This document shows positions 12,605 through 39,003 of a stretch of 64,000 bases of DNA, piece by piece; position 1 is the stretch's first letter, and each line of letters starts with the position of its first letter. The notes under the pieces were generated by a model that was not told the origin of the DNA, did not search any database, and was given only the letters and a program-made list of their open reading frames with translations. This DNA comes from Stictocephala bisonia (taxonomy: Eukaryota; Arthropoda; Insecta; Hemiptera; Membracidae). The stretch is taken from contig JAQJVL010002522.1 of NCBI GenBank assembly GCA_035578905.1, forward strand, positions 30,216-94,215, read 5' to 3'. A program made the translations under genes and the position numbers.

Positions 12605-12747
12605 TACATTCTGTCCTATAGAAATCTTTTAAAAGTACTATTAAGAAAATAATATTTTAAGGAAATGTCTGTAAAAGTGAAGTTGTCAATGTATTAAGGT
12701 GTGTACGACTCATAGTGATAGGATTCACATTGATATGATTTTTCGTA
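12605..12747 (+). repeat. left part of the repeat unit interrupted by the palindromic element
   Basis: Matches 36785-36925 and 43284-43427 (CTGTCCTA, GTGATAGGAT, CACATTGATATGATTTT) and stops exactly where the palindrome begins. The matching right part resumes at 30331. This shows that the element inserted into a pre-existing copy of the tandem unit. Confidence 0.85.
12742..12747. repeat. left 6-bp target-site duplication
   Basis: TTCGTA immediately precedes the element's AGTAGACATAAAGGG terminus. The same six bases follow the other terminus at 30325-30330. A 6-bp duplication is the size known for Polintons/Mavericks. Confidence 0.85.
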
Positions 12748-12775
12748 AGTAGACATAAAGGGACAGTTCTGGGCT

Positions 12776-12847
12776 CACCTTCGGGCATCTTCGGCTCTCG
12801 GATTCAAGATGGCGACCACCTTCGGGCATCTTCGGGTCACGTGACCC
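12776..12847. promoter_or_regulatory. terminal repeat pair with E-box palindrome and YY1-like site
   Basis: CACCTTCGGGCATCTTCGG occurs twice in direct orientation (12776-12794 and 12817-12835). Between them AAGATGGCG (12806-12814) matches the YY1/Pho core, and the second copy runs into GGGTCACGTGACCC (12834-12847), a perfect 14-bp palindrome with a CACGTG E-box. The mirror set lies at the right end of the element. Position near the terminus suggests a promoter or a replication/integration site. No function is shown. Confidence 0.45.
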
Positions 12848-12919
12848 AGTCCTACCAACCCCCGTGGGAAAATTCCCTCCCTAAATTTCCCTCAAATTCC
12901 TAAATTTCCCTCCAAATTC

Positions 12920-12990
12920 CCACATCATACTATATAACAAGCACTTTTTCCAAGATGGCGGCCTTTCCCACCTTATACTATATAAAATGC
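12920..12990 (+). promoter_or_regulatory. duplicated TATATAA-type sites with a second YY1-like site
   Basis: ACTATATAACA and ACTATATAAAATG occur about 45 bp apart, separated by CAAGATGGCGGCC (12951-12963). These could be core promoter elements for a transcript entering the arm. The PolB ORF starts 1.8 kb downstream, so a spliced leader would be needed. Confidence 0.25.
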
Positions 12991-13106
12991 TTTCGGGTAC
13001 TTCCGGCGACTGTCGGCTACCTTCGTACGCTCTTAGTCTACGATATACACGTCGGCTGCTGGTCTGGCGCGCATGTGCGGGGACTTGTGCTCGGTGGACA
13101 AGCGCG

Positions 13107-14371
13107 TTACGTCACCACTCATACAGCGGCTGCGAAACTCGGGTATAGGACTCCGGGCGTCAGACTGGTTTTCATGTCTGGACAGGCGTGTGACCCAAAT
13201 GCTACGCTCTGATTGGTTGCCTCCCTCCCTCCCTACTTTACAAGTAATCTTTCTCACACGCACTGTTAGCCTACCTATTTAAATGAATTTTGAATTTAAT
13301 TGTTCTGAATTTTTAATAAATACACTGTTAACCTAGCTTTCTTATATAACATGCGCTCTTAAGTTCGGGTACTCCCACTCATCTGCGGCTTCCTTTAACA
13401 AACATTGTTACCTACATACTTCCGTTAAAAATATCTAATCACAGTTGGGTACATACTTAACACTCTAGGCAACCCGCAATACACGTTTTATTTAAAAATT
13501 AAGGGACAGCTATTATTTATATTAATTATTTACTTATTTTTTATTTTTATTTAATACATTGTTAACTTTAGGGTCCTTCTACCCCCTCCCATCTACTTCC
13601 GGTTAAATTCGTATGGATACCTTCATATCAAACACACCCGACATCCTCTAAACTTAACACACTAGCTGAACACTCTTACCCTAGAGCCCTCATGCCTACC
13701 GGACTATCCAACCTAAATTACTTTAACTGTACTTACAAAGTCTACTGGTGGCCGGGCTTTACCACATCCGCTTCCGTTATTGGTCACAAGCTTCACATCT
13801 TAGTATAATATGTTTTCTTTCATTAACTATCATCATGTACTATAACAATTTCCTATTTTCGTCCACCTTTGCATGCGTGTACATGGTACCTAAGTTACAT
13901 TACTTATTTTCAGTCACTTTCATTATCAATTCTGTGGACTCCCCCCCTTTACCTCACTTCCTATCCACGTTCCTATCCAGAACCTATCAGTCCCCCTACA
14001 TAACGAAACTAGCACACCTAGCCTCACTTCCTTTCCTCAAAAATTCCTTCCTTTGTACTATAGCGACACTCAAGGACTAATTCACTACAATTTCACAAAC
14101 CGTATCCCACTACCTCTGCTCGGTGCACTGGCAGTCCAATAGTTCTCGCGCACTTTTCTTATCGAAACCACTTCCATTACCACAAGCAATATTTTACATC
14201 CCGTACGTTGTCTTTTATTTGCACAATCTCTTTTAATAATATCGAACACTTAATTAACATTGTATATGATTCCTTCTGAACATTTATTAAAACAGTACTA
14301 CACAGGATGACGTAATCAGAGTTTCAAGTCTGGACAGGCGCGTGATCCAAATGCTACGTTCTGATTGGTTG
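13107..14371 (+). repeat. two direct copies of a CRE/CCAAT-bearing 45-bp module
   Basis: The module with CTGGACAGGCG, CCAAATGCTACG and CTGATTGGTTG occurs at 13176-13219 and 14326-14371, each followed by a C-rich CTCCC tract and each preceded by a TGACGTAA-type site (13107-13114 inverted, 14307-14314). ATTGG is an inverted CCAAT box. The sequence between the copies is noncoding; the ORFs there lack recognisable content. It is mirrored in the right arm. Confidence 0.5.
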
Positions 14372-14758
14372 ACCCTCCCCCTCCCCTCCCCTCCCCCCCA
14401 TCCATCCCTACTTCACTGAACAACACAATCATTCTTTCTCACTTCTGCTCTTGCGCTCGTACTGATCAGACGTGTCTTCACTTTGCTCCTACTTGCAATC
14501 GATATCAGTAATAATACTCAATAATAAATACAATTATTCTCATCATAAATACTTTAACTTTATTCTTGTAATTTATATTTTGGACACCGTTCTCTGTACG
14601 GTATTTCGAAAGTGATATACCAAGAGTAAGTTTTGTATACAGTATCAATATTCCTTGCGTTTGATTTGATTGACTAGAGTTTGAATATCCTTGTTTTTGA
14701 GCTTTTAATTCGATTTGAATTACTATTAATATCATTTAATTTTATTTAATTACCAAAT

Positions 14759-17700
14759 ATGGAATCCTACGCCATAAACCACAACCTTGTCACAATTTCC
14801 CGCCGGTTTGATACCACAGGAACTGACCTCCTTACCGTTCTAACTGAACATAAAAATAAAATTTCGTCCGAAATAAATAACCACCTAAACAGGCTCGGGG
14901 GAGTTAAATGGTATATTTCCGTTCAAATTAAATTTTCCAAAATTGTTAATAACGAGGAAATCTCAACTACTCCATTCTTTCACGGCAAAACTCGTCCTTT
15001 GTTACCTTCCGATTCTCTAGATATTCAGTATTCCGAGGCTACAGACAAAATTTTAGAAAGCGTGGCTAAGTGGGTAAGTCAAGGTAGTGGGTGGGTAATA
15101 GAAAATGTTTTACGACTCGATCTGTTTATTGTTAAATTTCAACCTTTGTACGCCTCTTCTTTCATACCCACCCCCAAAAAAATCTCAAACCCCAAACAAG
15201 GAATTGTAAATATTAAAAATGACGATCAAAAATGTTTCCTATACTCTGTACTTGCCCATCTGTACCCTGACCGAAATCGGCGAATAACTTATTATAAATC
15301 CTTTGAATGTAATATAAATATGTCTGGGATTAGCTATCCTGTCAAAATTACCGATTTAGATAAATTTGAAAAATTGAACCCCGCTTTATCTGTAAATGTA
15401 TTTGGATTTGAAAACGATGAAATTTACCCCCTAAGAATAACCAAAGAAAAATTTAGAGCTCACCATGTAAACTTGTTACTACTGACTACTGACACCACCT
15501 CCCACTACTGTCTAATTACCAACTTATCCCGACTTTTAACCCACTTGACTAAACACGACGGTGTTAGGTTCTACTGTGACTACTGCCTACACAGATTTTC
15601 CTCCCAACTACGACTTACTAACCACTTACCTTTGTGTTCACCACACGGTGCACAAAAGACTAGACTTCCTACTGAAGACGAAAAACTTATGTATTTTAAA
15701 AACTACACACTTACTCACAAAGTCCCATTTACCATTTACTGTGACTTCGAGTCCTTTGTTGTTCCGATCGACACAGCACTGAACGACCCTACCACTTCAC
15801 ACACTACAAACACTGCCCACCACATCCCCTCTGGCTTTTGCTATGTAATCATTGACAGTGATGGCAAACCAGTAAAACAACCCAAAGTCTATAGCGGCCC
15901 CGACGTTGTAGATACTTTTCTAAATTGTTTGATTGAGGAGTCTAAAGAGCTCTTACCAATTATTAAAAAGAATATTCCTATTAATATGTCTCCACAAGAC
16001 AAAATTGTTTTCAAAAATGCTACCACCTGTCACCTTTGTCAAAAACCTTTAGACGGAGACAAAGTGGCCAACCATAATCATTTAACGGGTGAGTTCTTGG
16101 GACCCGCCCACAATTCATGTAACTTAAACTACCAAGTTCCCGATCACATTCCAGTCTTTTTCCATAACCTCAGAGGTTATGACTGCCACCACTTGATCCA
16201 AGGGCTAGGCAAATTCAAAAAAGAAAAACTGTCATGTATCGCTACAACTAGTGAGCGGTACATTTCAGTCACCCTTGAGTCACTTCGTTTCCTGGATTCT
16301 TTACAGTTCCTAAACACCTCTTTGGACACACTCGTGTCCAACCTAGTTTCTGACGGGGCTTCCAAATTTAAAATTTTAGGGCAGTGTATGTCCAACACAG
16401 ACTTACTCTTACGAAAAGGCGTCTTTCCCTACACTTACATGACCAATCAATCAAAATTTAATGATACTGAACTACCTCCCAAGGAGGCGTTCTACAACGA
16501 CCTGACCAAAACACCTATATCCGACGAAGACTACACACACGCACAGACTGTGTGGAATACTTTTGACATGACTTCAATGAAACAGTACCACGACCTTTAC
16601 TTACTCACAGACGTGTTATTACTTGCCGATGTGTTTGAAAATTTTAGGACGACAAGTATGACTTACTACGGGATTGACCCCTGTAACGTCTACTCTGCCC
16701 CCGGACTGGCATGGAATTCCATGCTCAAAATGACAGACGTACGTCTTGAACTACTTACTGACATAGACCAACACTTGTTTGTTGAGTCTGGGATCCGGGG
16801 CGGTGTCTCCATGATACCTAACCGGCACGCCCAGGCCAACAATCCCTACTTACCCGACTTTGACAACACAAAACCAACCAATTACTTACTTTACCTCGAT
16901 TGTAACAATTTATACGGAACCAGTATGTCAGATAGACTCCCAGAGTCTGATTTTAAGTGGATCGACCCACAGGACATTGACATTACAAACGTACCCGACG
17001 ACTCTGACATTGGTTACATTTTAGAGGTTGACTTACACTACCCAGACCATTTACACGACTTACATTCTGACTTTCCACTGGCCCCCGAACGAAAAGTGGT
17101 GACATACGACATGCTATCGACATACTGTAGGGACTTGCTAGACGAACTCGACTATAAACCTCCCAAGACTGAAAAACTACTGACTACTCTATGTGACAAA
17201 ACAAAATACGTTGTACACTACAGGACTCTAAAACTATACTTACAACTGGGACTTGTACTGACTAAAATCCACAGAGTTCTTAGCTTTAAACAGTCTGCCT
17301 GGTTAGCCCCATTTATTAACTTTAACACAGAAAAAAGAAAAGAAGCTAAAAACAATTTCGAAAAAGATTTTTTTAAGTTAATGAACAACGCCACATATGG
17401 TAAATCTTTGGAAAATGTTAGGTCACGTATTGATTTTAAACTTGTAAATAACGAGAAACAATTGGTAAAATGGACAGCTAGTCCCAGACTCAAGACTTTC
17501 TTTGCTTACAATAAAGATATCGCGGGATTGGCTTTAAAAAAACAAACCATCTTCTTAAACAGACCCATTTATGTTGGATTTACAGTTTTAGAAATTTCGA
17601 AATTAATAATGTACAATTTTCATTACAACTGGGCAATTGCAAAGTACGGGAAGAATATAAAGCTTTGCATGACCGATACCGATTCATTATTTTACAATGT

Positions 17701-18202
17701 TTACACACCAGACGTTTACGCTGACATTAAAAACGAACTTCATCTTTTCGACACATCAGACTACCCACCCAGCCACCCATGTTATAGTGTAGAAAACAAA
17801 AAAGTGTTAGGAAAATTTAAAGACGAGTTAAATTCAAATCCAGCTAGGGAAATAATTGGCTTGAGAGCGAAATGCTACTCTATTCTAAATTCAGATCTAG
17901 AGGAAAAGAAGGTGGCTAAAGGCGTCCCCCGAGTAGCGATAAAAAAACAACTAAAACATGAAATGTACAAAAACTGCTTGCTTAAACATTCGTTAAAAAC
18001 AACATCAGCTCTAAATATCCGCAGTGACAAACATAACATTTACACGCAACACATTTCAAAATTATCACTATCTCCCTTTGACGATAAAAGATACATTTTG
18101 GAAAATGGCATAGATACTTTAGCCTACGGACACTATTTAATTAACAAAAAACGAGCTTTAGAACACGACCATGATTACGTAACTAAAAGAATTAAAACTT
18201 GA
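14759..18202 (+). CDS. polB: protein-primed-type family B DNA polymerase with HNH-like zinc motif, left copy
   Basis: 1147 residues, ATG to TGA, uninterrupted. Exonuclease motifs: ExoI D329-F-E331, ExoII N470-LRGYD475, ExoIII Y614-LLTD618. Polymerase motifs: A (D714-CNNLYG720), B (K873 to YG881, K-x3-N-x2-YG), C (DTDS 973-976), and KxY (K1038-C-Y1040). The long stretch between A and B has room for the TPR insertions of protein-primed enzymes. A C2H2/C-type finger (C273, C276, H289, C293) lies before the exonuclease. Between ExoI and ExoII is an endonuclease VII-like HNH pattern (CHLC 424-427, NHNH 438-441, HNSC 451-454). This is the Polinton/bidnavirus-related PolB family. It would copy the element's linear DNA, probably primed by a terminal protein. 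The best-supported gene in the window. Confidence 0.96.
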   Translation: MESYAINHNLVTISRRFDTTGTDLLTVLTEHKNKISSEINNHLNRLGGVKWYISVQIKFSKIVNNEEISTTPFFHGKTRPLLPSDSLDIQYSEATDKILESVAKWVSQGSGWVIENVLRLDLFIVKFQPLYASSFIPTPKKISNPKQGIVNIKNDDQKCFLYSVLAHLYPDRNRRITYYKSFECNINMSGISYPVKITDLDKFEKLNPALSVNVFGFENDEIYPLRITKEKFRAHHVNLLLLTTDTTSHYCLITNLSRLLTHLTKHDGVRFYCDYCLHRFSSQLRLTNHLPLCSPHGAQKTRLPTEDEKLMYFKNYTLTHKVPFTIYCDFESFVVPIDTALNDPTTSHTTNTAHHIPSGFCYVIIDSDGKPVKQPKVYSGPDVVDTFLNCLIEESKELLPIIKKNIPINMSPQDKIVFKNATTCHLCQKPLDGDKVANHNHLTGEFLGPAHNSCNLNYQVPDHIPVFFHNLRGYDCHHLIQGLGKFKKEKLSCIATTSERYISVTLESLRFLDSLQFLNTSLDTLVSNLVSDGASKFKILGQCMSNTDLLLRKGVFPYTYMTNQSKFNDTELPPKEAFYNDLTKTPISDEDYTHAQTVWNTFDMTSMKQYHDLYLLTDVLLLADVFENFRTTSMTYYGIDPCNVYSAPGLAWNSMLKMTDVRLELLTDIDQHLFVESGIRGGVSMIPNRHAQANNPYLPDFDNTKPTNYLLYLDCNNLYGTSMSDRLPESDFKWIDPQDIDITNVPDDSDIGYILEVDLHYPDHLHDLHSDFPLAPERKVVTYDMLSTYCRDLLDELDYKPPKTEKLLTTLCDKTKYVVHYRTLKLYLQLGLVLTKIHRVLSFKQSAWLAPFINFNTEKRKEAKNNFEKDFFKLMNNATYGKSLENVRSRIDFKLVNNEKQLVKWTASPRLKTFFAYNKDIAGLALKKQTIFLNRPIYVGFTVLEISKLIMYNFHYNWAIAKYGKNIKLCMTDTDSLFYNVYTPDVYADIKNELHLFDTSDYPPSHPCYSVENKKVLGKFKDELNSNPAREIIGLRAKCYSILNSDLEEKKVAKGVPRVAIKKQLKHEMYKNCLLKHSLKTTSALNIRSDKHNIYTQHISKLSLSPFDDKRYILENGIDTLAYGHYLINKKRALEHDHDYVTKRIKT

Positions 18203-18221
18203 GTAAAAACGTACCTTACAA

Positions 18222-18227
18222 AATAAA
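18222..18227 (+). terminator. PolB poly(A) signal, left copy
   Basis: AATAAA 20 bases after the PolB stop codon, the canonical polyadenylation hexamer at a plausible distance. Its mirror is on the minus strand at about 24846-24851. Confidence 0.6.
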
Positions 18228-18622
18228 CACAACGTTCCTCAATATATCCTCTCCATAACTGAATACCGCCACTCCCTTCCCCCACCACTCCTTCCTTTCC
18301 CACATCCTGTTCAACTTGCACTAATGGCGCCAATCCCACTAAATCGGAACCTTTCTAAAAATATTGGACAGTTTCTTTGTATATATGAGGATTTGTACAT
18401 AACTTATCCGTAAATTTGTAATATTTGTAAATAACCGGGTCCTTTAGCAGTTTCAATGTACATGCAAAGTCTACGAGTAATACTTTTACACACTGTTACA
18501 GGATGTGGCTCACCACATCAATCTTATCGCTTGTGTCACAAAGGCGAAATATCAACTTGCTTTAATATAAAGATTATATACTTCCAACTACTAAAAAAAG
18601 CGATGGAATGAGATTGTAACCC
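18228..18622. other. spacer between PolB and the small spliced gene
   Basis: C-rich noncoding sequence, nothing recognised. The next gene may have its promoter here. Confidence 0.4.
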
Positions 18623-19033
18623 ATGGTTACTAACATGTCCGTAGAAACCCAATTTACGGCATTGGATGGGCTCAATCCAACCGTAGTGCAGACACCGTAC
18701 TGGGCGAACCTTCTTCTTGATTACGGTAACTCCTACGCCAGGTAAGTAATGTTAAGTTAGTTTTGAGTAAACTCTTTTACCGTCAACCTTTAAAAACAAT
18801 CTGTAAAGTAAATTCTGTTATAATATTGACACTTTTGTGAGTTTACATAACTACAATTTATTAACGGATATCTTCAGCTCTGTGTGAATTTCTATAGAAT
18901 ACCGTACCATCGAGGTGAGGGCGGCCCAAATTCAATAAAAAAAGCCCGACTGTTTTCCAAGGCAGCCGTAAAACGCATAAGACCTGAATCAGTCCTGCAG
19001 CTTGGGGCTGGATTAATCTCCGTAAGACCTTGA
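18623..19033 (+). CDS. probable two-exon small protein of the element, left copy
   Basis: Exon 1 at 18623-18741 has an in-frame stop just upstream of its ATG and ends CCAG|GTAAGT, a near-ideal donor. A 156-bp intron ends TTTCTATAG at 18897. Exon 2 (18898-19033) joins in frame and ends in TGA, giving 84 residues. Without splicing the frame ends at once after exon 1. The C-terminal half contains IPYHRGEGG followed by a basic stretch (IKKARLFSKAAVKRI). Small basic proteins with a PYxRGxG-like segment occur next to PolB in Polinton and adintovirus relatives, where they may be minor virion proteins. That link is from memory of the pattern and tentative. The gene model is inference. Confidence 0.4.
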
Positions 19034-19930
19034 GTCGCAGTCCGGGCCCTCGTAAGGTACGTGTATGATTGAATGTTACACTCTATGGCTGGACAGTATC
19101 CGTAGGTCCCGTGTGTGAGGGAGAGTAACCTACAAAAAAAGAGAAAAAAAAACACAAAAACCTACTATAAAAAAACAGTATCAAAAATAATAAAAACAAA
19201 TTTATAAATAAAAACCCCTTTGTAAGTCTATACGTCACATTGAAAGGCTTCTCTAAGTAAAGTGATGTCTTTACTTACAGAGGGACCCAAAAATACAAAA
19301 AATAAATACAAAAATTATAAAAAAACAATAACTAAATAATACTGAGAGGTAGCATTTTGTTGGTTGGCTACCATCGTAGTGAGCGAGGTTGGGGCTCATT
19401 ACATTAAAATACCCGTGGGGGATACCAGTCCTCTATCGGGCGCGTCCCATGGGAATTGGGCAATGCCCTTCAGTTTTGCCTTCAGCTTACTTGAGGGTAG
19501 TGAGGAATTAAATACTCACCGTGAAAAAAACTGGTTAAATCAAAAACATTAATAAAATCTGCGAGAAAGATCATGGTATAGTACAGAATCAGGAAGTGAT
19601 CTTAGTACGATATGGTAAAACTTTATATAAAAAGAGTAAATCCCATCCAAAAGTAAGAAAAAAATCAAAGATACATACAAATTTCAGAAAAAGAGTCATT
19701 TTACATAAAAAATGTGTTGAAAAATGTTTCAAATCAAGGAAGAAATACCATCATAGTACTCTCCAAACCCCTTAAAATTTAGTTAAAATGTCAATAAATA
19801 GGGTTATTTTTGTACAAAATATGTTATAATTCCCTAAAAGCATTAAAATTCAGTGTCATAACAATGATATTTGTTCTAAACATTAAAAAACCTTTAAAAT
19901 TATCTAATAGACTCTTTATAAACTTAGTTT
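19034..19930. other. low-complexity noncoding part of left arm with a weak 62-codon ORF
   Basis: The ORF at 19364-19552 begins with TTG rather than ATG and has no known motif. It is preserved in both arms, but so is everything else. An acceptor-like CTTTACTTACAG precedes it at about 19280, so it could be a further exon. Evidence is too thin for a CDS call. Confidence 0.25.
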
Positions 19931-19934
19931 GTGC

Positions 19935-21140
19935 TCAAATCAACACACAAAAGACCAAACACAAACTCTACATATAAGACTCTTGGTTGGCCACCCACCT
20001 ACTCAACATACAACAACTCTGATAGATCATCCACCTAACCATTACATAAAACCTTTGATAGACCACCAACACACATGAACAACCTACCTACAAACATTCA
20101 TCACTCTTGACTTACCGCCCACCTACTCAACACACAGAGAGACTACGTAACTAACCATTACATAAAACCTCAGATTGACACCCAACATTCATGGAAGACC
20201 TACCTACCAATCATACAACTTGATTGACCATCCACCTACACACCACACATTCATCTTGATAATCCAATCACCCTCCCATAAAAAGACTCTTGTCAGACTA
20301 TTTACTTAACATACAAGACACCACACACTCTACATCAACCATCTACCTACTCAACACACAAAGACCAAACACACACTCTACATATAAGACTCTTGGTTGG
20401 TCACTCACCAACTCAACATATAACACCTCTGATACACCATTCACTTGAACATAACATAAAACCTTAGATTGACACACATCATTCATGGTAGACCTACCTA
20501 CCAAACATACAACTTGACCGTCCACACATCACACACAGTACTCTCGATAGATCACTTAACTACCTATTACATAAAGCCTCCGATTGACTCACAGTCCTAA
20601 CATTCATAAACAACTAACCTCCCAAACATACGACTCAACCACCAACAAAAAACAAGACTTCACGTATAACCACCCATTTAACATACAAGACCAACCACAC
20701 ACCATACAATCATGACTTAACATGAACAACCCACCTACCACCTACTCAACATTCTACACTCTTGACTAACCACCCACCTACTCAACACACAGATAGACTA
20801 CGTAACCATCCATTACATAAAACCGTAGATCAACACCCATCATTCATGGATGACCTACCTACCAAACACACGACTTGACCACCTTCCCAAAGCATAAGAC
20901 TTTTGAAGGACCACCTACCAAACATACAAGAACAACCACACACCTTACAGGCATGACCTAACAGTCCACCCACCTACTCAACATATAACACCTCTGATAC
21001 ACCATCCACTTGAACATTACATAAAACTTGTGATATTCCACACAATCACCAAACACACATGACTCTTAATAGACCAATCCACCTACCTTTGCACACACGA
21101 TTCCTTAGGACACACCCTACACCCACCACTCATCCTACAG
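19935..21140 (+). repeat. A/C-rich degenerate tandem repeat tract, left arm
   Basis: About 1.2 kb with very few G bases on this strand. Phrases such as ACCATTACATAAAACC, CCACCTACTCAACA, GACCTACCTACCAA and ACATATAAGACTCTTGG recur in shuffled order at roughly 60-200 bp spacing. It is a degenerate higher-order repeat with no ORF. The mirror tract is G/T-rich on the + strand (about 21935-23140). Confidence 0.8.
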
Positions 21141-21471
21141 ACAAAACTCCTAGAGAACTACCCATCCACCATAAAAACACTATTTCTTCATATAATCATG
21201 TTTTAAAATAACATTATTACACTGTAAGATAGGTTTAATATAGCTAAAGACCTAAAGTGTTACCTAAAATTCTGTTTTCTCTAGAAATATGAGAGCCGTT
21301 GGTGGAAAACATCCAAACTAAATATAGAAAATAAGAATTAGCTAGTAGTTTCATATAAATTCTGCTATACAACTAAAAAAATATGAGAAAAAGTTGGGTT
21401 AAAAAACAATGAACATAGAAAAAGTTGGGTTTAAAAACAATGAACACAGAAAAAGTTAGGTTAGCAAACAT

Positions 21472-21600
21472 CCGAAAAGTTCAGTTAAAATTACCAAAAC
21501 TCAAAAAATGGGACATTTTTTGACTCTTGTTAATTTTAACAACTTTTCGGAAAAGTAAGGCTAGCAATCATCCTTTCGGTTGTTTGCTAGCCTTACTTTT
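21472..21600. repeat. apex of the palindrome: two adjacent hairpins (T-shaped centre)
   Basis: Hairpin 1 (21472-21550): CCGAAAAGTT pairs with AACTTTTCGG, GTTAAAATTA with TAATTTTAAC, and CAAAAAATG with CATTTTTTG, leaving a 3-base GGA loop, a 2-base bulge and a few mismatches. Hairpin 2 (21551-21600): AAAAGTAAGGCTAGCAA pairs perfectly over 17 bp with its complement around a 16-base loop. The main arms end immediately outside (21471 and 21604). Main stem plus two side arms gives a three-way T shape like the terminal hairpins of AAV-type parvoviruses. Any role as replication origin or telomere is inference. Confidence 0.85.
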
Positions 21601-21934
21601 CGGATGTTTGCTAACCTAACTTTTTCTGTGTTCATTGTTTTTAAACCCAACTTTTTCTATGTTCATTGTTTTTTAACCCAACTTTTTCTCATATTTTTTT
21701 AGTTGTATAGCAGAATTTATATGAAACTACTAGCTAATTCTTATTTTCTATATTTAGTTTGGATGTTTTCCACCAACGGCTCTCATATTTCTAGAGAAAA
21801 CAGAATTTTAGGTAACACTTTAGGTCTTTAGCTATATTAAACCTATCTTACAGTGTAATAATGTTATTTTAAAACATGATTATATGAAGAAATAGTGTTT
21901 TTATGGTGGATGGGTAGTTCTCTAGGAGTTTTGT

Positions 21935-23140
21935 CTGTAGGATGAGTGGTGGGTGTAGGGTGTGTCCTAAGGAATCGTGTGTGCAAAGGTAGGTGGATTG
22001 GTCTATTAAGAGTCATGTGTGTTTGGTGATTGTGTGGAATATCACAAGTTTTATGTAATGTTCAAGTGGATGGTGTATCAGAGGTGTTATATGTTGAGTA
22101 GGTGGGTGGACTGTTAGGTCATGCCTGTAAGGTGTGTGGTTGTTCTTGTATGTTTGGTAGGTGGTCCTTCAAAAGTCTTATGCTTTGGGAAGGTGGTCAA
22201 GTCGTGTGTTTGGTAGGTAGGTCATCCATGAATGTTGGGTGTTGATCTACGGTTTTATGTAATGGATGGTTACGTAGTCTATCTGTGTGTTGAGTAGGTG
22301 GGTGGTTAGTCAAGAGTGTAGAATGTTGAGTAGGTGGTAGGTGGGTTGTTCATGTTAAGTCATGATTGTATGGTGTGTGGTTGGTCTTGTATGTTAAATG
22401 GGTGGTTATACGTGAAGTCTTGTTTTTTGTTGGTGGTTGAGTCGTATGTTTGGGAGGTTAGTTGTTTATGAATGTTAGGACTGTGAGTCAATCGGAGGCT
22501 TTATGTAATAGGTAGTTAAGTGATCTATCGAGAGTACTGTGTGTGATGTGTGGACGGTCAAGTTGTATGTTTGGTAGGTAGGTCTACCATGAATGATGTG
22601 TGTCAATCTAAGGTTTTATGTTATGTTCAAGTGAATGGTGTATCAGAGGTGTTATATGTTGAGTTGGTGAGTGACCAACCAAGAGTCTTATATGTAGAGT
22701 GTGTGTTTGGTCTTTGTGTGTTGAGTAGGTAGATGGTTGATGTAGAGTGTGTGGTGTCTTGTATGTTAAGTAAATAGTCTGACAAGAGTCTTTTTATGGG
22801 AGGGTGATTGGATTATCAAGATGAATGTGTGGTGTGTAGGTGGATGGTCAATCAAGTTGTATGATTGGTAGGTAGGTCTTCCATGAATGTTGGGTGTCAA
22901 TCTGAGGTTTTATGTAATGGTTAGTTACGTAGTCTCTCTGTGTGTTGAGTAGGTGGGCGGTAAGTCAAGAGTGATGAATGTTTGTAGGTAGGTTGTTCAT
23001 GTGTGTTGGTGGTCTATCAAAGGTTTTATGTAATGGTTAGGTGGATGATCTATCAGAGTTGTTGTATGTTGAGTAGGTGGGTGGCCAACCAAGAGTCTTA
23101 TATGTAGAGTTTGTGTTTGGTCTTTTGTGTGTTGATTTGA
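21935..23140 (-). repeat. A/C-rich degenerate tandem repeat tract, right arm
   Basis: Inverted copy of the left-arm tract; the + strand here is G/T-rich (GTAGGTGG-type words). It holds no ORF. The short ORF at 22550-22732 is a by-product of the repeat. Confidence 0.8.
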
Positions 23141-24039
23141 GCACAAACTAAGTTTATAAAGAGTCTATTAGATAATTTTAAAGGTTTTTTAATGTTTAGA
23201 ACAAATATCATTGTTATGACACTGAATTTTAATGCTTTTAGGGAATTATAACATATTTTGTACAAAAATAACCCTATTTATTGACATTTTAACTAAATTT
23301 TAAGGGGTTTGGAGAGTACTATGATGGTATTTCTTCCTTGATTTGAAACATTTTTCAACACATTTTTTATGTAAAATGACTCTTTTTCTGAAATTTGTAT
23401 GTATCTTTGATTTTTTTCTTACTTTTGGATGGAATTTACTCTTTTTATATAAAGTTTTACCATATCGTACTAAGATCACTTCCTGATTCTGTACTATACC
23501 ATGATCTTTCTCGCAGATTTTATTAATGTTTTTGATTTAACCAGTTTTTTTCACGGTGAGTATTTAATTCCTCACTACCCTCAAGTAAGCTGAAGGCAAA
23601 ACTGAAGGGCATTGCCCAATTCCCATGGGACGCGCCCGATAGAGGACTGGTATCCCCCACGGGTATTTTAATGTAATGAGCCCCAACCTCGCTCACTACG
23701 ATGGTAGCCAACCAACAAAATGCTACCTCTCAGTATTATTTAGTTATTGTTTTTTTATAATTTTTGTATTTATTTTTTGTATTTTTGGGTCCCTCTGTAA
23801 GTAAAGACATCACTTTACTTAGAGAAGCCTTTCAATGTGACGTATAGACTTACAAAGGGGTTTTTATTTATAAATTTGTTTTTATTATTTTTGATACTGT
23901 TTTTTATAGTAGGTTTTTGTGTTTTTTTTCTCTTTTTTTGTAGGTTACTCTCCCTCACACACGGGACCTACGGATACTGTCCAGCCATAGAGTGTAACAT
24001 TCAATCATACACGTACCTTACGAGGGCCCGGACTGCGAC
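23141..24039. other. low-complexity noncoding part of right arm
   Basis: Mirror of 19034-19930, including the weak TTG-initiated 62-codon ORF (23523-23711, minus). The longer + strand ORF at 23837-24181 is antisense to exon 2 of the small gene and is not called. Confidence 0.3.
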
Positions 24040-24450
24040 TCAAGGTCTTACGGAGATTAATCCAGCCCCAAGCTGCAGGACTGATTCAGGTCTTATGCGT
24101 TTTACGGCTGCCTTGGAAAACAGTCGGGCTTTTTTTATTGAATTTGGGCCGCCCTCACCTCGATGGTACGGTATTCTATAGAAATTCACACAGAGCTGAA
24201 GATATCCGTTAATAAATTGTAGTTATGTAAACTCACAAAAGTGTCAATATTATAACAGAATTTACTTTACAGATTGTTTTTAAAGGTTGACGGTAAAAGA
24301 GTTTACTCAAAACTAACTTAACATTACTTACCTGGCGTAGGAGTTACCGTAATCAAGAAGAAGGTTCGCCCAGTACGGTGTCTGCACTACGGTTGGATTG
24401 AGCCCATCCAATGCCGTAAATTGGGTTTCTACGGACATGTTAGTAACCAT
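24040..24450 (-). CDS. probable two-exon small protein of the element, right copy
   Basis: Mirror of the left-arm gene: exon 1 24450-24332, intron 24331-24176, exon 2 24175-24040, with the same donor, acceptor and stop. No disabling change is seen relative to the left copy. Function is uncertain, as for the left copy; it may be a small basic virion-type protein. Confidence 0.4.
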
Positions 24451-24870
24451 GGGTTACAATCTCATTCCATCGCTTTTTTTAGTAGTTGGAAGTATATAAT
24501 CTTTATATTAAAGCAAGTTGATATTTCGCCTTTGTGACACAAGCGATAAGATTGATGTGGTGAGCCACATCCTGTAACAGTGTGTAAAAGTATTACTCGT
24601 AGACTTTGCATGTACATTGAAACTGCTAAAGGACCCGGTTATTTACAAATATTACAAATTTACGGATAAGTTATGTACAAATCCTCATATATACAAAGAA
24701 ACTGTCCAATATTTTTAGAAAGGTTCCGATTTAGTGGGATTGGCGCCATTAGTGCAAGTTGAACAGGATGTGGGAAAGGAAGGAGTGGTGGGGGAAGGGA
24801 GTGGCGGTATTCAGTTATGGAGAGGATATATTGAGGAACGTTGTGTTTATTTTGTAAGGTACGTTTTTAC

Positions 24871-27800
24871 TCAAGTTTTAATTCTTTTAGTTACGTAATC
24901 ATGGTCGTGTTCTAAAGCTCGTTTTTTGTTAATTAAATAGTGTCCGTAGGCTAAAGTATCTATGCCATTTTCCAAAATGTATCTTTTATCGTCAAAGGGA
25001 GATAGTGATAATTTTGAAATGTGTTGCGTGTAAATGTTATGTTTGTCACTGCGGATATTTAGAGCTGATGTTGTTTTTAACGAATGTTTAAGCAAGCAGT
25101 TTTTGTACATTTCATGTTTTAGTTGTTTTTTTATCGCTACTCGGGGGACGCCTTTAGCCACCTTCTTTTCCTCTAGATCTGAATTTAGAATAGAGTAGCA
25201 TTTCGCTCTCAAGCCAATTATTTCCCTAGCTGGATTTGAATTTAACTCGTCTTTAAATTTTCCTAACACTTTTTTGTTTTCTACACTATAACATGGGTGG
25301 CTGGGTGGGTAGTCTGATGTGTCGAAAAGATGAAGTTCGTTTTTAATGTCAGCGTAAACGTCTGGTGTGTAAACATTGTAAAATAATGAATCGGTATCGG
25401 TCATGCAAAGCTTTATATTCTTCCCGTACTTTGCAATTGCCCAGTTGTAATGAAAATTGTACATTATTAATTTCGAAATTTCTAAAACTGTAAATCCAAC
25501 ATAAATGGGTCTGTTTAAGAAGATGGTTTGTTTTTTTAAAGCCAATCCCGCGATATCTTTATTGTAAGCAAAGAAAGTCTTGAGTCTGGGACTAGCTGTC
25601 CATTTTACCAATTGTTTCTCGTTATTTACAAGTTTAAAATCAATACGTGACCTAACATTTTCCAAAGATTTACCATATGTGGCGTTGTTCATTAACTTAA
25701 AAAAATCTTTTTCGAAATTGTTTTTAGCTTCTTTTCTTTTTTCTGTGTTAAAGTTAATAAATGGGGCTAACCAGGCAGACTGTTTAAAGCTAAGAACTCT
25801 GTGGATTTTAGTCAGTACAAGTCCCAGTTGTAAGTATAGTTTTAGAGTCCTGTAGTGTACAACGTATTTTGTTTTGTCACATAGAGTAGTCAGTAGTTTT
25901 TCAGTCTTGGGAGGTTTATAGTCGAGTTCGTCTAGCAAGTCCCTACAGTATGTCGATAGCATGTCGTATGTCACCACTTTTCGTTCGGGGGCCAGTGGAA
26001 AGTCAGAATGTAAGTCGTGTAAATGGTCTGGGTAGTGTAAGTCAACCTCTAAAATGTAACCAATGTCAGAGTCGTCGGGTACGTTTGTAATGTCAATGTC
26101 CTGTGGGTCGATCCACTTAAAATCAGACTCTGGGAGTCTATCTGACATACTGGTTCCGTATAAATTGTTACAATCGAGGTAAAGTAAGTAATTGGTTGGT
26201 TTTGTGTTGTCAAAGTCGGGTAAGTAGGGATTGTTGGCCTGGGCGTGCCGGTTAGGTATCATGGAGACACCGCCCCGGATCCCAGACTCAACAAACAAGT
26301 GTTGGTCTATGTCAGTAAGTAGTTCAAGACGTACGTCTGTCATTTTGAGCATGGAATTCCATGCCAGTCCGGGGGCAGAGTAGACGTTACAGGGGTCAAT
26401 CCCGTAGTAAGTCATACTTGTCGTCCTAAAATTTTCAAACACATCGGCAAGTAATAACACGTCTGTGAGTAAGTAAAGGTCGTGGTACTGTTTCATTGAA
26501 GTCATGTCAAAAGTATTCCACACAGTCTGTGCGTGTGTGTAGTCTTCGTCGGATATAGGTGTTTTGGTCAGGTCGTTGTAGAACGCCTCCTTGGGAGGTA
26601 GTTCAGTATCATTAAATTTTGATTGATTGGTCATGTAAGTGTAGGGAAAGACGCCTTTTCGTAAGAGTAAGTCTGTGTTGGACATACACTGCCCTAAAAT
26701 TTTAAATTTGGAAGCCCCGTCAGAAACTAGGTTGGACACGAGTGTGTCCAAAGAGGTGTTTAGGAACTGTAAAGAATCCAGGAAACGAAGTGACTCAAGG
26801 GTGACTGAAATGTACCGCTCACTAGTTGTAGCGATACATGACAGTTTTTCTTTTTTGAATTTGCCTAGCCCTTGGATCAAGTGGTGGCAGTCATAACCTC
26901 TGAGGTTATGGAAAAAGACTGGAATGTGATCGGGAACTTGGTAGTTTAAGTTACATGAATTGTGGGCGGGTCCCAAGAACTCACCCGTTAAATGATTATG
27001 GTTGGCCACTTTGTCTCCGTCTAAAGGTTTTTGACAAAGGTGACAGGTGGTAGCATTTTTGAAAACAATTTTGTCTTGTGGAGACATATTAATAGGAATA
27101 TTCTTTTTAATAATTGGTAAGAGCTCTTTAGACTCCTCAATCAAACAATTTAGAAAAGTATCTACAACGTCGGGACCACTATAGACTTTGGGTTGTTTTA
27201 CTGGTTTGCCATCACTGTCAATGATTACATAGCAAAAGCCAGAGGGGATGTGGTGGGCAGTGTTTGTAGTGTGTGAAGTGGTAGGGTCGTTCAGTGCTGT
27301 GTCGATCGGAACAACAAAGGACTCGAAGTCACAGTAAATGGTAAATGGGACTTTGTGAGTAAGTGTGTAGTTTTTAAAATACATAAGTTTTTCGTCTTCA
27401 GTAGGAAGTCTGGTCTTTTGTGCACCGTGTGGTGAACACAAAGGTAAGTGGTTAGTAAGTCGTAGTTGGGAGGAAAATCTGTGTAGGCAGTAGTCACAGT
27501 AGAACCTAACACCGTCGTGTTTAGTCAAGTGGGTTAAAAGTCGGGACATGTTGGTAATCAGACAGTAGTGGGAGGTGGTGTCAGTAGTCAGTAGTAACAA
27601 GTTTACATGGTGAGCTCTAAATTTTTCTTTGGTTATTCTTAGGGGGTAAATTTCATCGTTTTCAAATCCAAATACATTTACAGATAAAGCGGGGTTCAAT
27701 TTTTCAAATTTATCTAAATCGGTAATTTTGACAGGATAGCTAATCCCAGACATATTTATATTACATTCAAAGGATTTATAATAAGTTATTCGCCGATTTC

Positions 27801-28314
27801 GGTCAGGGTACAGATGGGCAAGTACAGAGTATAGGAAACATTTTTGATCGTCATTTTTAATATTTACAATTCCTTGTTTGGGGTTTGAGATTTTTTTGGG
27901 GGTGGGTATGAAAGAAGAGGCGTACAAAGGTTGAAATTTAACAATAAACAGATCGAGTCGTAAAACATTTTCTATTACCCACCCACTACCTTGACTTACC
28001 CACTTAGCCACGCTTTCTAAAATTTTGTCTGTAGCCTCGGAATACTGAATATCTAGAGAATCGGAAGGTAACAAAGGACGAGTTTTGCCGTGAAAGAATG
28101 GAGTAGTTGAGATTTCCTCGTTATTAACAATTTTGGAAAATTTAATTTGAACGGAAATATACCATTTAACTCCCCCGAGCCTGTTTAGGTGGTTATTTAT
28201 TTCGGACGAAATTTTATTTTTATGTTCAGTTAGAACGGTAAGGAGGTCAGTTCCTGTGGTATCAAACCGGCGGGAAATTGTGACAAGGTTGTGGTTTATG
28301 GCGTAGGATTCCAT
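24871..28314 (-). CDS. polB: protein-primed-type family B DNA polymerase, right copy
   Basis: 1147 residues, intact, in opposite orientation to the left copy. All catalytic motifs are identical: ExoI DFE 329-331, ExoII N470...YD475, ExoIII Y614...D618, PolA D714, PolB K873...YG881, PolC DTDS 973-976, KxY 1038-1040 and the HNH-like zinc pattern 424-454. The only residue difference seen is Met256 in place of Leu256. The two genes converge towards the apex, about 6.7 kb apart. Near-identity of two intact copies implies recent formation of the dimer or ongoing homogenisation between arms. Confidence 0.96.
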   Translation of the reverse strand: MESYAINHNLVTISRRFDTTGTDLLTVLTEHKNKISSEINNHLNRLGGVKWYISVQIKFSKIVNNEEISTTPFFHGKTRPLLPSDSLDIQYSEATDKILESVAKWVSQGSGWVIENVLRLDLFIVKFQPLYASSFIPTPKKISNPKQGIVNIKNDDQKCFLYSVLAHLYPDRNRRITYYKSFECNINMSGISYPVKITDLDKFEKLNPALSVNVFGFENDEIYPLRITKEKFRAHHVNLLLLTTDTTSHYCLITNMSRLLTHLTKHDGVRFYCDYCLHRFSSQLRLTNHLPLCSPHGAQKTRLPTEDEKLMYFKNYTLTHKVPFTIYCDFESFVVPIDTALNDPTTSHTTNTAHHIPSGFCYVIIDSDGKPVKQPKVYSGPDVVDTFLNCLIEESKELLPIIKKNIPINMSPQDKIVFKNATTCHLCQKPLDGDKVANHNHLTGEFLGPAHNSCNLNYQVPDHIPVFFHNLRGYDCHHLIQGLGKFKKEKLSCIATTSERYISVTLESLRFLDSLQFLNTSLDTLVSNLVSDGASKFKILGQCMSNTDLLLRKGVFPYTYMTNQSKFNDTELPPKEAFYNDLTKTPISDEDYTHAQTVWNTFDMTSMKQYHDLYLLTDVLLLADVFENFRTTSMTYYGIDPCNVYSAPGLAWNSMLKMTDVRLELLTDIDQHLFVESGIRGGVSMIPNRHAQANNPYLPDFDNTKPTNYLLYLDCNNLYGTSMSDRLPESDFKWIDPQDIDITNVPDDSDIGYILEVDLHYPDHLHDLHSDFPLAPERKVVTYDMLSTYCRDLLDELDYKPPKTEKLLTTLCDKTKYVVHYRTLKLYLQLGLVLTKIHRVLSFKQSAWLAPFINFNTEKRKEAKNNFEKDFFKLMNNATYGKSLENVRSRIDFKLVNNEKQLVKWTASPRLKTFFAYNKDIAGLALKKQTIFLNRPIYVGFTVLEISKLIMYNFHYNWAIAKYGKNIKLCMTDTDSLFYNVYTPDVYADIKNELHLFDTSDYPPSHPCYSVENKKVLGKFKDELNSNPAREIIGLRAKCYSILNSDLEEKKVAKGVPRVAIKKQLKHEMYKNCLLKHSLKTTSALNIRSDKHNIYTQHISKLSLSPFDDKRYILENGIDTLAYGHYLINKKRALEHDHDYVTKRIKT

Positions 28315-30324
28315 ATTTGGTAATTAAATAAAATTAAATGATATTAATAGTAATTCAAATCGAATTAAAAGCTCAAAAACAAGGATATTCAAACTCTAGT
28401 CAATCAAATCAAACGCAAGGAATATTGATACTGTATACAAAACTTACTCTTGGTATATCACTTTCGAAATACCGTACAGAGAACGGTGTCCAAAATATAA
28501 ATTACAAGAATAAAGTTAAAGTATTTATGATGAGAATAATTGTATTTATTATTGAGTATTATTACTGATATCGATTGCAAGTAGGAGCAAAGTGAAGACA
28601 CGTCTGATCAGTACGAGCGCAAGAGCAGAAGTGAGAAAGAATGATTGTGTTGTTCAGTGAAGTAGGGATGGATGGGGGGAGGGGAGGGGAGGGGGAGGGT
28701 CAACCAATCAGAACGTAGCATTTGGATCACGCGCCTGTCCAGACTTGAAACTCTGATTACGTCATCCTGTGTAGTACTGTTTTAATAAATGTTCAGAAGG
28801 AATCATATACAATGTTAATTAAGTGTTCGATATTATTAAAAGAGATTGTGCAAATAAAAGACAACGTACGGGATGTAAAATATTGCTTGTGGTAATGGAA
28901 GTGGTTTCGATAAGAAAAGTGCGCGAGAACTATTGGACTGCCAGTGCACCGAGCAGAGGTAGTGGGATACGGTTTGTGAAATTGTAGTGAATTAGTCCTT
29001 GAGTGTCGCTATAGTACAAAGGAAGGAATTTTTGAGGAAAGGAAGTGAGGCTAGGTGTGCTAGTTTCGTTATGTAGGGGGACTGATAGGTTCTGGATAGG
29101 AACGTGGATAGGAAGTGAGGTAAAGGGGGGGAGTCCACAGAATTGATAATGAAAGTGACTGAAAATAAGTAATGTAACTTAGGTACCATGTACACGCATG
29201 CAAAGGTGGACGAAAATAGGAAATTGTTATAGTACATGATGATAGTTAATGAAAGAAAACATATTATACTAAGATGTGAAGCTTGTGACCAATAACGGAA
29301 GCGGATGTGGTAAAGCCCGGCCACCAGTAGACTTTGTAAGTACAGTTAAAGTAATTTAGGTTGGATAGTCCGGTAGGCATGAGGGCTCTAGGGTAAGAGT
29401 GTTCAGCTAGTGTGTTAAGTTTAGAGGATGTCGGGTGTGTTTGATATGAAGGTATCCATACGAATTTAACCGGAAGTAGATGGGAGGGGGTAGAAGGACC
29501 CTAAAGTTAACAATGTATTAAATAAAAATAAAAAATAAGTAAATAATTAATATAAATAATAGCTGTCCCTTAATTTTTAAATAAAACGTGTATTGCGGGT
29601 TGCCTAGAGTGTTAAGTATGTACCCAACTGTGATTAGATATTTTTAACGGAAGTATGTAGGTAACAATGTTTGTTAAAGGAAGCCGCAGATGAGTGGGAG
29701 TACCCGAACTTAAGAGCGCATGTTATATAAGAAAGCTAGGTTAACAGTGTATTTATTAAAAATTCAGAACAATTAAATTCAAAATTCATTTAAATAGGTA
29801 GGCTAACAGTGCGTGTGAGAAAGATTACTTGTAAAGTAGGGAGGGAGGGAGGCAACCAATCAGAGCGTAGCATTTGGGTCACACGCCTGTCCAGACATGA
29901 AAACCAGTCTGACGCCCGGAGTCCTATACCCGAGTTTCGCAGCCGCTGTATGAGTGGTGACGTAACGCGCTTGTCCACCGAGCACAAGTCCCCGCACATG
30001 CGCGCCAGACCAGCAGCCGACGTGTATATCGTAGACTAAGAGCGTACGAAGGTAGCCGACAGTCGCCGGAAGTACCCGAAAGCATTTTATATAGTATAAG
30101 GTGGGAAAGGCCGCCATCTTGGAAAAAGTGCTTGTTATATAGTATGATGTGGGAATTTGGAGGGAAATTTAGGAATTTGAGGGAAATTTAGGGAGGGAAT
30201 TTTCCCACGGGGGTTGGTAGGACTGGGTCACGTGACCCGAAGATGCCCGAAGGTGGTCGCCATCTTGAATCCGAGAGCCGAAGATGCCCGAAGGTGAGCC
30301 CAGAACTGTCCCTTTATGTCTACT
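28315..30324. other. outer noncoding part of right arm (terminal region)
   Basis: Mirror of 12748-14758, carrying the duplicated CCAAT/CRE module, TATATAA-type sites, YY1-like AAGATGGCG sites, the CACGTG palindrome and the TTCGGGCATCTTCGG repeats (here in complement). The small ORFs in this region are mirrored in both arms and have no recognisable content. Confidence 0.7.
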
Positions 30325-30330
30325 TTCGTA
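30325..30330. repeat. right 6-bp target-site duplication
   Basis: TTCGTA directly after the GTCTACT terminus, matching 12742-12747. Confidence 0.85.
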
Positions 30331-32410: not shown

Positions 32411-32718
32411 TATAGGTTAATTACCTTCAATCTGCCAGTGTTTCTAAAAATCCATTTGGATTACACGTTTCAGCTTTTTATTCCATCATCATATTCTTAA
32501 GAAATTAAAACAATGTTCTATTTTTGTTCTTGATGGTCTTGACAATTTTTTTTAAAAATAAGACTGAAAATCAAAGAAGTTTTTTAAAATTTTGACAAGA
32601 CCATCAAGAATAAAATTAGAAAAATCTTTTAAGGATCTGATGACGGCTCAAAAAGCCGGAACGCGTAATCCAAGAGGATTTACAGAATTACTGACAGATT
32701 GAAGGTAATTAACCTATA
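32411..32718 (+). repeat. 308-bp foldback with hammerhead-like core (family 2), copy 1
   Basis: Termini TATAGGTTAATTACCTTCAA and its complement form inverted ends. A second inverted pair (CTTGATGGTCTTG / CAAGACCATCAAG) lies inside. The hammerhead-like motif near the right end (32633-32671) has GGA in place of GAA in its core, so this copy should be inactive. A decayed mirror of the motif lies near the left end. Confidence 0.75.
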
Positions 32719-33639
32719 ATATATTAATGAAAAATGATTCCAAAAAACAACACCAAAATGACAAATATTAATGATCAGATTTGTTTGAAAGTAGCTTTAC
32801 TTTCAGTAAAATTAAAGTATCCAAATTAAAATGTTTGTTCATAAAAAATAGTGATACATTTAATTATTTAAAATATAAAGATTTTTTTTTTTTTTGTAAC
32901 TACAAAAAATTATGAACTTTTAATAATTGTCAACAAAGATGATATTAGTACAGTTATAAAATATTTAATACTTTGAGAGTTTTATGTTTGCTGAGAATGT
33001 TATCGTGTTTTCAGTTACCAAATTAATCACATACCGTACAAAAGAATAATTTAATAATACGGAAATTATTTTCTAATATTGTCTCTATTTTAATTACGTC
33101 ATTTTGCATAACCAGTAACTTGATTATCTTGTCAATAACAATTCCATTTTAGCACCACCCTTTAAGTGTCAGCATAGTAAATTCAATCACTCAATTTTAA
33201 CTTTCGCTAGATATTTCTCGTAAACTTCACATTAATTTTCTATGTTGAAGGTAGAGCTGTATTGGTTTTTTTGAATATAATTGTTAAAAATAACACAATT
33301 TAAACCAATAAAAACTATATTTATTTTACTAATAAAGTTTTTATCCGTTTAATTTGTTATTATTATTAATTTGTAACAATTATACACATTCATTGTTTCT
33401 GTATGTTTGTGGTCTGTTTACTTTTCTAAAGTTACATAGCAAACTTAAAAGTTACTTACTTAATACAGTTCACTTACATAATTAACAAGAAAAGAACGCT
33501 TCATACATAAAAAAAAACTATCTTGACATTGAAACGCATGTTAAGATACCATTAAGTATTAGTTGTTTGGAGCCTATCATCATATTATCGTATTGTTCAA
33601 AACTCCTGGAATGATAACTTTAATGTTAATACTTATACA

Positions 33640-36781: not shown

Positions 36782-36783
<2 letters not shown>

Positions 36784-39003
36784 AGTCTGTCCTACAGTAA
36801 ATTTTTTAATTACTATTAGAAAAATAATATTTTTATTAAATTTATGAAAAATGAGAGTTATCATTGTATTTAGGTGTATACGATTCTTAGTGATAGGATG
36901 CACATTGATATGATTTTCCCACAAATAATTTCAATATTTTAGTTGCCACAAATAAAATGATAAGTTGAAAACAAATATAAGGAAAAAATATGTCTGGTGA
37001 AGGGGGAGGAGTTTCTCGTTGGTTTATTCAAACGCAAATGCTGGTTGAAAGGCATTTGCTTCTCAAAGACGTAGAAATTGGCGTGTTTCGTGTCTGAAGG
37101 TATACAATGGATATTCGCTTGAGTGGTGAAAACACCTTCGTTTTGAACATCCTTTACACGAAACTGAACTGAAGACGGTTCGTTGTCTGTTGAATTTTCC
37201 TTAATACAAAGTTTCTGAACGTTAAATAACAAATCTTAGCATCCAGAAAATTGCACATTTCAGTTTTATTTTTTAATTGTAGTACTATTAATTCAACTGA
37301 ATATAATATGATATTATTTAAATTAACAAGTTTCTTGTATATTTATTTATACGTATTTGAAATAAATCTTTTTGTAGGACTAATTTCTTATTTCGGTTGT
37401 GCAATTTAAAACGCTAGAGTCATTTAAAAATATTTCATGTACCAGATCCAATATATTAGAGTTGGGTTTGAATTTAAACTTGTTAGCCCTATATAACTAT
37501 GCTCTTTTTTATTTGCATATGCATCATTATATTTTTTTAATTTGTTTAAGCTGTTTCACAAACAGTCAGATTCATTATGGTCAGACTGTAATTCTTTTTT
37601 TACCTTTTGTGTAGTTTAGTATATCATTTAATATTATGTACAATGTACTGTATTATGTATGTAAAAATAGGAAACAAATATTACTATTATTAAAATAACT
37701 ATGTTACCAACCAATTAAATGTTACAAAGTTTGTATACATAATGCGGTTATCTTAAATCAGGACCTATTTTACACTAGTGCAATAGGGAAAATTAGATAA
37801 AATCATGGCAATTAAACCGTATCATTACAATAATATAAAGCAATACAATACAAGGAACAATATAGAACTATAAAATAGGTTATAGATAAGTTATTAAGTG
37901 CATGTTTGGAAATAGTGGCGCAGTGCTGTAACCCAGCTACTTGTGAAAAAGTGTTGTGGAGATTGTAGGCGATAGGTTCTATGCTCAGTCCTCTTGATAA
38001 CCACATGGCGTCCGCTTAATGATTGCCTTTGTCGTAAACATTACTTGAGAAAACTTGTCCACTTTTTGGTGGTAGTCAAGGTTCAGATGTTGTGTAGGGA
38101 AGAGAACTGATTGTCCGGATTGTCAGTTACCTGAAAATCAGAAAATACTACGTGGTTCGGATTCCACGTAAATCTGTAGGTTCCTTAGTTTCCCAGGCTA
38201 CTTGCCTATTAATAAATAGTACTTCTTAACAACAGTCGTCTTTCATTAGTAACACTGACTACATTCGTTCATCTACACTAATCACACCCATTCGCCCATC
38301 ATATTCGCCCATATCTCTTCGATAAGTGTATTGCTAATAAACAATGCTTAATCCATTTGAAAGGCAATAATTGGGCTTCAAGTCTCTTAGCTACCATAAT
38401 GTGTACTTACCACAAAATACTGCTGATGACTGCACTCTCGTTCAAATCATGAAGTACTTCGCCCACATAGTACTTAGAGAATAGGTTCGAAGGAATCTAC
38501 AGTATTGCGACCAAGGACCCATTGTTACAGACGATCTGATTGTTAAATAATTTATAAGAATAAAAATACTTTAAGACACTGGTAATATACTTAAAAAGGA
38601 ATCAACTATTCATCGACTATAATCTAATTTATAATGTTTAGGGGAAATATATGATTATACATTTTTAGAGACCCAAATAGATATTACCAATACTAAGAAT
38701 TAAAAAAAAATGGTACAGCTCAAATGTATATACTCCAACAACTGTTAAGAATCTACCATTGGAGCATATTATAATATTTAAATCGACAATAATTAATTAT
38801 ATATTGTATTATTTACTTGAATTTGGAATAATTAATCATCATTAACTAAAAACAACAATATTCAGACCAATTATATTTCATGCATCGTTTTTATATGATT
38901 GTGCAATACCTAATCAATTTGATAACTAATTTACATTTTTTAGCAAGTTAATTTGCAAATAAATAATGATTACATAACTGTTTAAGGTAAAATATTAATG
39001 TTT

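Follow-up and report, generated by a model that had tools for sequence, protein, structure and literature searches.

A 17.6 kb palindromic Polinton derivative with two PolB genes, multiplied in the genome of Stictocephala bisonia

Polintons (Mavericks) are called self-synthesizing elements, but their replication is not known to have been observed directly. Protein-primed polymerases displace strands; hairpin plasmids derived from the yeast linear plasmid pGKL1, and symmetrical defective adenovirus DNAs, are inverted dimers that have kept one protein-primed end, and the subgenomic DNAs of phi29 were reportedly traced to template switching by Murthy et al. in 1998. Here we describe, in a window of 64,000 nucleotides from the hemipteran Stictocephala bisonia (Membracidae; assembly GCA_035578905.1, contig JAQJVL010002522.1, positions 30,216 to 94,215 of the forward strand), a 17.6 kb element which shares with Polintons the AG..CT ends, the 6-bp target-site duplication and a long PolB of the Polinton kind, but which differs from them in being a palindrome over its whole length, carrying PolB twice and none of their other genes that we could find. 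We conclude that it is a Polinton derivative and no new class of replicon, and that the rearranged form is no one-off, having multiplied to at least 58 loci. We think it likely that such palindromes are snap-back inverted dimers of a Polinton, resembling defective interfering genomes, made during strand-displacing replication and integrated in trans.

Self-alignment of the window gives a left arm at 12748..21480 (+ strand, 8733 bp, starting AGTAGAC) and a right arm at 21595..30324 (- strand, 8730 bp, finishing GTCTACT), which flank a single-copy central spacer of 114 bp (21481..21594, + strand) lying outside the palindromic pairing. The aligned arms show 8722 identities, 8 mismatches and 3 single-base indels (by BLAST, with 48 bp of flank included, 8741 aligned columns at 99.85%). 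The outer ends read AGTAGACA on the left and TGTCTACT on the right; both are homologous to Polinton ends, with a PolB gene pointing inward from each, and the AG..CT termini are bordered by the duplicated target TTCGTA (12742..12747 and 30325..30330), beyond which the left and right flanks bear no resemblance to each other. An earlier, sequence-only reading of the window had described the near-perfect palindrome with its 8.7 kb arms, these ends, TTCGTA on both sides, unlike flanks and an intact 1147-residue PolB in each arm, and all of these features are confirmed here.

The same window holds a paralogous empty site. When the two flanks are fused at one TTCGTA they align collinearly to a repeat unit outside the element (36782..37082, + strand; coordinates approximate) with 265 identities, 33 mismatches and 7 gap positions, and to a second unit at about 43285-43581 with 256 identities, 38 mismatches and 6 gap positions. 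Each match contains a single copy of the target, and the entire 17.6 kb was therefore inserted as one unit, which bears out the earlier proposal of a single Polinton-type insertion. The units belong to a tandem direct repeat (30330-44014, unit about 6.6 kb, 94-95% identity), and the palindrome sits near the start of the first.

Both PolB genes are intact open frames of 1147 aa (14759..18202 on the + strand and 24871..28314 on the - strand). The protein carries the motifs DFE, KLMNNATYG and DTD, and its polymerase and exonuclease residues are invariant across 50 aligned proteins. Invariant in the same 50 proteins are D156, C159 and H249 (C159/H249 being a candidate vOTU pair), a zinc-finger-like set (C273, C276, H289, C293) and an Endonuclease VII-like set (C424, C427, H439, H441, C454, N455). 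A Pfam scan of the window PolB matched Endonuclease_7 below the cut-off only and gave no DNA polymerase model with E up to 1, though some related proteins have PF03175 as a precomputed match. Related proteins occur widely among animals (named matches, in 120 listed of 545, include the planthopper Lycorma, bivalves, a spider, and corals with other cnidarians), and two related loci in IMG/VR, with PolB at 39%, are not palindromic. In one study (PMC11071308) it is argued from modelling that terminal-protein and vOTU domains stand at the start of Polinton PolBs. Should that modelled layout hold here, one gene could supply primer, protease and polymerase, in principle enough for end replication.

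The parentage of the element becomes apparent from the rest of the genome (1.68 Gb in 11105 contigs, numbered here with the prefix C; the locus classes from our PolB, ATPase, capsid and centre searches are lower bounds). The COX1 of the assembly agrees with a treehopper host, being 99% identical to one Membracidae entry and at most 88% identical to the other 119 entries listed. A complete Polinton of 17.2 kb, at C5138:3725-20958, with similar ends and the target-site duplication TGTACG, carries PolB, a BIR-domain open reading frame (ORF), integrase, ATPase and capsid genes. Its integrase is an open frame of 309 aa (rve, 1.4e-9, plus a chromodomain; D36, D96 and E130 assigned by eye), and its BIR (inhibitor-of-apoptosis) ORF lies between PolB and integrase (L092:262-678; PF00653, 1.5e-21). 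A second element, at C1652:11364-24957, has similar ends, terminal inverted repeats of 482 bp (99.8%) and the duplication TGTATA; it encodes a double-jelly-roll capsid protein (PF21738, 1.5e-105), a PLA2-like protein (PF08398) and an integrase chromodomain; its adenoviral-protease match is weak (0.083), its Pox_A32-like ATPase falls under the cut-off (0.00026), and no PolB frame was seen. This PolB-less element raised the idea of a bipartite genome, with PolB and capsid genes on separate elements, which we rejected once complete elements had been mapped. Near their right ends, both of these non-palindromic elements contain 74 bp of PolB sequence at about 90% (L089:761-834 and L093:3016-3089).

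C5138 does not stand alone. A 247-aa piece of PolB gave 3495 candidates, of which 150 were scored, and 31 of the 150 are followed by an ATPase gene in the same orientation, 1.5-3 kb downstream (150 scored of 2262 candidates in the ATPase search); two of the 31 are the arms of a palindrome on C4438, and 22 of the remaining 29 also have a capsid gene (105 scored of 2702 in the capsid search). The scored matches thus give this host 29 parent-type elements with collinear PolB and ATPase, C5138 being one of them. The sequence-only reading had held that non-palindromic copies with integrase and capsid genes would mark the palindrome as a rearranged product; such copies exist, the integrase having been read in one of them, C5138, and with complete Polintons of similar ends in the genome the window element is therefore a rearranged Polinton derivative. 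That reading had proposed an integrated inverted dimer of an 8.7 kb PolB replicon: the inverted dimer stands, with its Polinton-type ends, 6-bp duplication and PolB alone, whereas a PolB replicon lineage apart from Polintons is not supported, given the 29 arrangements with ATPase, the 22 with capsid and the integrase of C5138. The helper Polintons with similar termini that it had called for have possible representatives here, C5138 with an open integrase frame among them.

Proteins from these two elements were used to search the window. By tblastn, the C5138 integrase found no match (a positive control recovered integrase), nor did twelve C1652 proteins, capsid, protease and packaging ATPase included; the C5138 BIR protein likewise found none in the window. 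Additional genes between PolB and the spacer (18203-21480, 3.3 kb) were rejected, as this stretch has no unspliced ORF longer than 87 aa and no match to the Polinton proteins tried. In these searches, then, the element encodes PolB twice and no further Polinton gene, as first described. Against the PolB-side end of C5138 the arm is similar in patches (79-96%), and the end of C1652 is matched likewise; PolB is common to the arm and C5138, and similarity continues for about 130 bp beyond it. Within a non-coding stretch at 18910..19319 (+ strand), positions 18910-19040 and about 19210-19319 match the right-hand non-coding side of both C5138 and C1652 (88.6-90.4%). This suggests, by sequence comparison, that the arm is a Polinton which has lost the genes from integrase to capsid through an internal deletion.

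The palindromic form recurs widely. In a search with the whole PolB, 40 matches were scored out of 6674 initial candidates, and by hand count 28 of them make up 14 inward-facing pairs; with the 247-aa piece, 84 of the scored matches make up 42 such pairs, while 37 of the 150 have neither pair nor ATPase in our lists, 7 of these lying on contigs with a palindromic centre. A search with the window's centre (40 scored of 761) found a mirror half beside the spacer in 38 cases, the window's own included, the centres on C148 and C623 being without one. Merging the 42 pairs and 38 centres, 22 found by both routes, gives at least 58 distinct palindromic loci; those known from gene order alone were counted by PolB pairing, with arm sequence outside the comparison. 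The palindromes with a length (a set that excludes C3925, and in which the lengths on C22, C2651 and C157 derive from match coordinates) are of 17.6-18.3 kb in 10 of 13 cases, the others being 13.5 kb (C22), 14.4 kb (C3046) and 19.1 kb (C4438). Fifteen palindromes were tried for target-site duplications, two of which (C3124 and C958) were unreadable, an end or flank being absent from the pieces fetched. Of the 13 readable, 12, the window included, have a perfect 6-bp duplication (TTCGTA, CAGTGG, TTCATA, GTCATA, TGTGTT, TTTACA, CACGAA, TGGGTG, ATCAAT, GATAGA, TATTGT and CAAGTA), and AG..CT termini accompany it in 11 of the 12 beyond the window, all but C3925. No palindrome of the right-hand end was found among the 105 scored capsid matches: two contigs have two matches, with no close pair. 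A second inward-facing ATPase pair, 6.8 kb apart, was seen at C540:558872 (+) and 566451 (-), perhaps another large inverted dimer like C4438. Element ends are near-constant in their first 6-7 bases and of several types over the next 17 or so (L009-L038), and the two ends of one palindrome, on C210, carry different types (L081/L082).

How the arms of one copy relate to those of others bears on origin. Over 6.4 kb around PolB, arms are 99.84-99.95% identical within all four copies compared, as against 92.1-95.5% between copies. Over the 3' 400 bp of PolB both arms are identical in all five copies with both read; here palindromes are 1.3-12.8% apart and complete elements 0.2-11.2% apart. Divergence among three copies along the arm is so uneven (0.2 to 13% per 500 bp) that segments must have been exchanged, in both arms alike. 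The near-identity of arms within copies that are divergent mosaics of one another therefore indicates that both arms came from one template.

In the origin that we favour, the PolB of a linear Polinton would begin copying the element at the PolB-side end, the terminal-protein primer probably being carried by PolB itself; replication of the parent was probably protein-primed. The polymerase or the displaced strand would then fold back and be copied upon itself, giving a hairpin with the PolB-side end as its only free end, and copying past the hairpin loop would turn this into a full palindrome, bounded left and right by the PolB-side end. Polinton integrase from complete elements, acting in trans, would insert the palindrome with its 6-bp duplication. 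One type of palindrome, with a centre foldable into a T, has multiplied. Of these steps we infer protein priming, the hairpin intermediate and the mobilisation in trans by Polinton integrase. In one study (PMC4176320) phi29 polymerase was reported to switch onto the displaced strand, its authors leaving a hairpin route possible; and subgenomic molecules in phi29-infected cells are ascribed to template switching in another (PMC4974454).

The palindromes have several different turn points. Four centres beyond the window's were read at base level. In C4438, whose two arms both carry PolB and ATPase and whose ends are identical over 173 bp and have the duplication CAAGTA, the turn lies within a 259-aa ORF (in C1652 this lies between ATPase and capsid genes), where a native inverted repeat, AAACA..TGTTT, encloses a loop of 7 nt. 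The turn of C22 is at a native 9-bp repeat; the loop of C3046 holds 265 bp of arm sequence once, with about 5 extra bases, and that of C2581 holds 252 bp once, with about 48. The centres of C765, C6447 and C4267 resemble the window's, for which three stems are predicted (21441-21472/21603-21634, 21473-21510/21514-21549 and 21550-21573/21578-21601). The predicted DNA fold of 21440-21634 is at -77.1 kcal/mol, versus -17.7 +/- 3.3 for shuffles (z -17.9), to which the palindrome itself contributes much; across 17 distinct spacers, 96.5% of cells in the two inner stem-loops are paired, versus 28-51% in slid versions.

Several points weigh against the snap-back origin. Only C4438 clearly derives from an element with complete-Polinton gene order; the turns of C3046, C22 and C2581 are in sequence common to the window-type arm, and thus are maybe secondary. 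A short native inverted repeat is present at two of four junctions (C4438 and C22), the other two junctions being elsewhere. For window positions 19320-21480, the stretches of C5138 and C1652 that were read offer no match. C3925 has a palindromic centre, but its ends are unlike (90-96% in pieces) and it has no duplication. Six of the eight arm mismatches in the window copy are concentrated in 385 bp of PolB (15514-15898); gene conversion in place may have acted there later. The contrast between arms and copies is weak beside the centre, because three copies differ there by only about 1%. Finally, the covariation score of the 17 distinct spacers was reached by 114 of 500 shuffles, so that covariation does not support a conserved spacer structure; a T-shaped hairpin at the window-type centre is possible, with no covariation signal of selection for the fold.

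The strongest competing explanation is a self-standing lineage of PolB-only hairpin replicons, Polinton-related and evolving alone, whose real genome would be an 8.8 kb hairpin. The same spacer with mirror halves in 38 of the 40 scored centres, open PolB frames in both arms of many copies and the predicted T at the window-type centre all speak for it. We nevertheless consider it unlikely: in a small tree (400 bp of PolB, 16 sequences from 11 copies) palindromes and complete elements are intermixed, the arms of palindromes are mosaic, in C4438 it is the Polinton half from PolB to ATPase that forms the palindrome, and the window gave no match to the C5138 integrase (tblastn). A related idea, which we put forward tentatively, is that the window-type palindrome may be a stable Polinton satellite. 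Its working genome would be an 8.8 kb hairpin with one protein-primed end and one T-shaped hairpin end, its arms being made identical by each hairpin cycle and the dimer inserted by Polinton integrase. If so, the satellite would stand midway between genomes with terminal proteins and those with hairpin ends, and might also be an element, encoded in the host genome, that interferes with active Polintons.

Chromosomal inverted duplication of a Polinton end, with arms homogenised by gene conversion, seems to us improbable. Conversion would be easy between arms just 114 bp apart, and the mismatches of the window arms are clustered; but 12 of 13 copies have a Polinton end at either extremity, enclosed by a single 6-bp duplication, and the window has its empty site; conversion in place cannot account for these ends, duplications and empty site. 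Beside the centre, divergence between the two arms of a copy is 0-0.67% for 27 of 30 copies and 5.4% for C1587, two copies being one-sided; conversion is therefore not holding every copy. An assembly artefact, from hairpin reads or mis-joined copies, is very unlikely, although palindromes are prone to misassembly and these were judged from the assembly: the duplications between unlike flanks (12 of 13 copies), the empty site, the varied turn points, the small arm differences and contigs of up to 14.3 Mb among those used point instead to a real palindrome that recurs in the genome.

Elsewhere in the window, an endogenous densovirus cluster lies at about 45.8-54.4 kb amid many inverted and direct repeats. 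It includes an intact 603-aa densovirus-type capsid frame with a PLA2 motif (48790-50601, - strand; Denso_VP4, 6.1e-24) and a weak Parvo_NS1-like frame (51915-52619, - strand; 7.8e-4).

Among known systems, foldback transposons have very long inverted repeats like those of the window element, but are not known to carry PolB and have other ends and duplications. Parvoviruses have T-shaped terminal hairpins, and the window centre could fold likewise, although here the T is predicted and no capsid gene was found. The pGKL1 derivatives and defective adenovirus DNAs are cytoplasmic or in virions, and are not known as mobile insertions in many genomic copies. Bidnaviridae encode a protein-primed PolB (PMC4061559), but no capsid gene was found in the window element. 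The phi29 DNAs are subgenomic, stem mostly from a single end of a genome with protein-primed replication and are made by polymerase template switching (PMC4974454), an origin like that proposed here, but are neither integrated nor inherited. In the literature searched by title and abstract opening, a scope outside which most subscription papers fell, there was no mention of palindromic Polintons, and so far as that partial search goes an integrated, multiplied inverted-dimer form of a Polinton has no earlier mention. A Polinton fragment with only PolB and one end can evidently reach dozens of copies, which bears on the origin of satellites and interfering genomes. The palindromes make the idea of Polinton copying testable in a living insect; with their identical arms and varied turns, they look like a genomic record of the strand-displacing, fold-back copying expected of protein-primed linear DNA.

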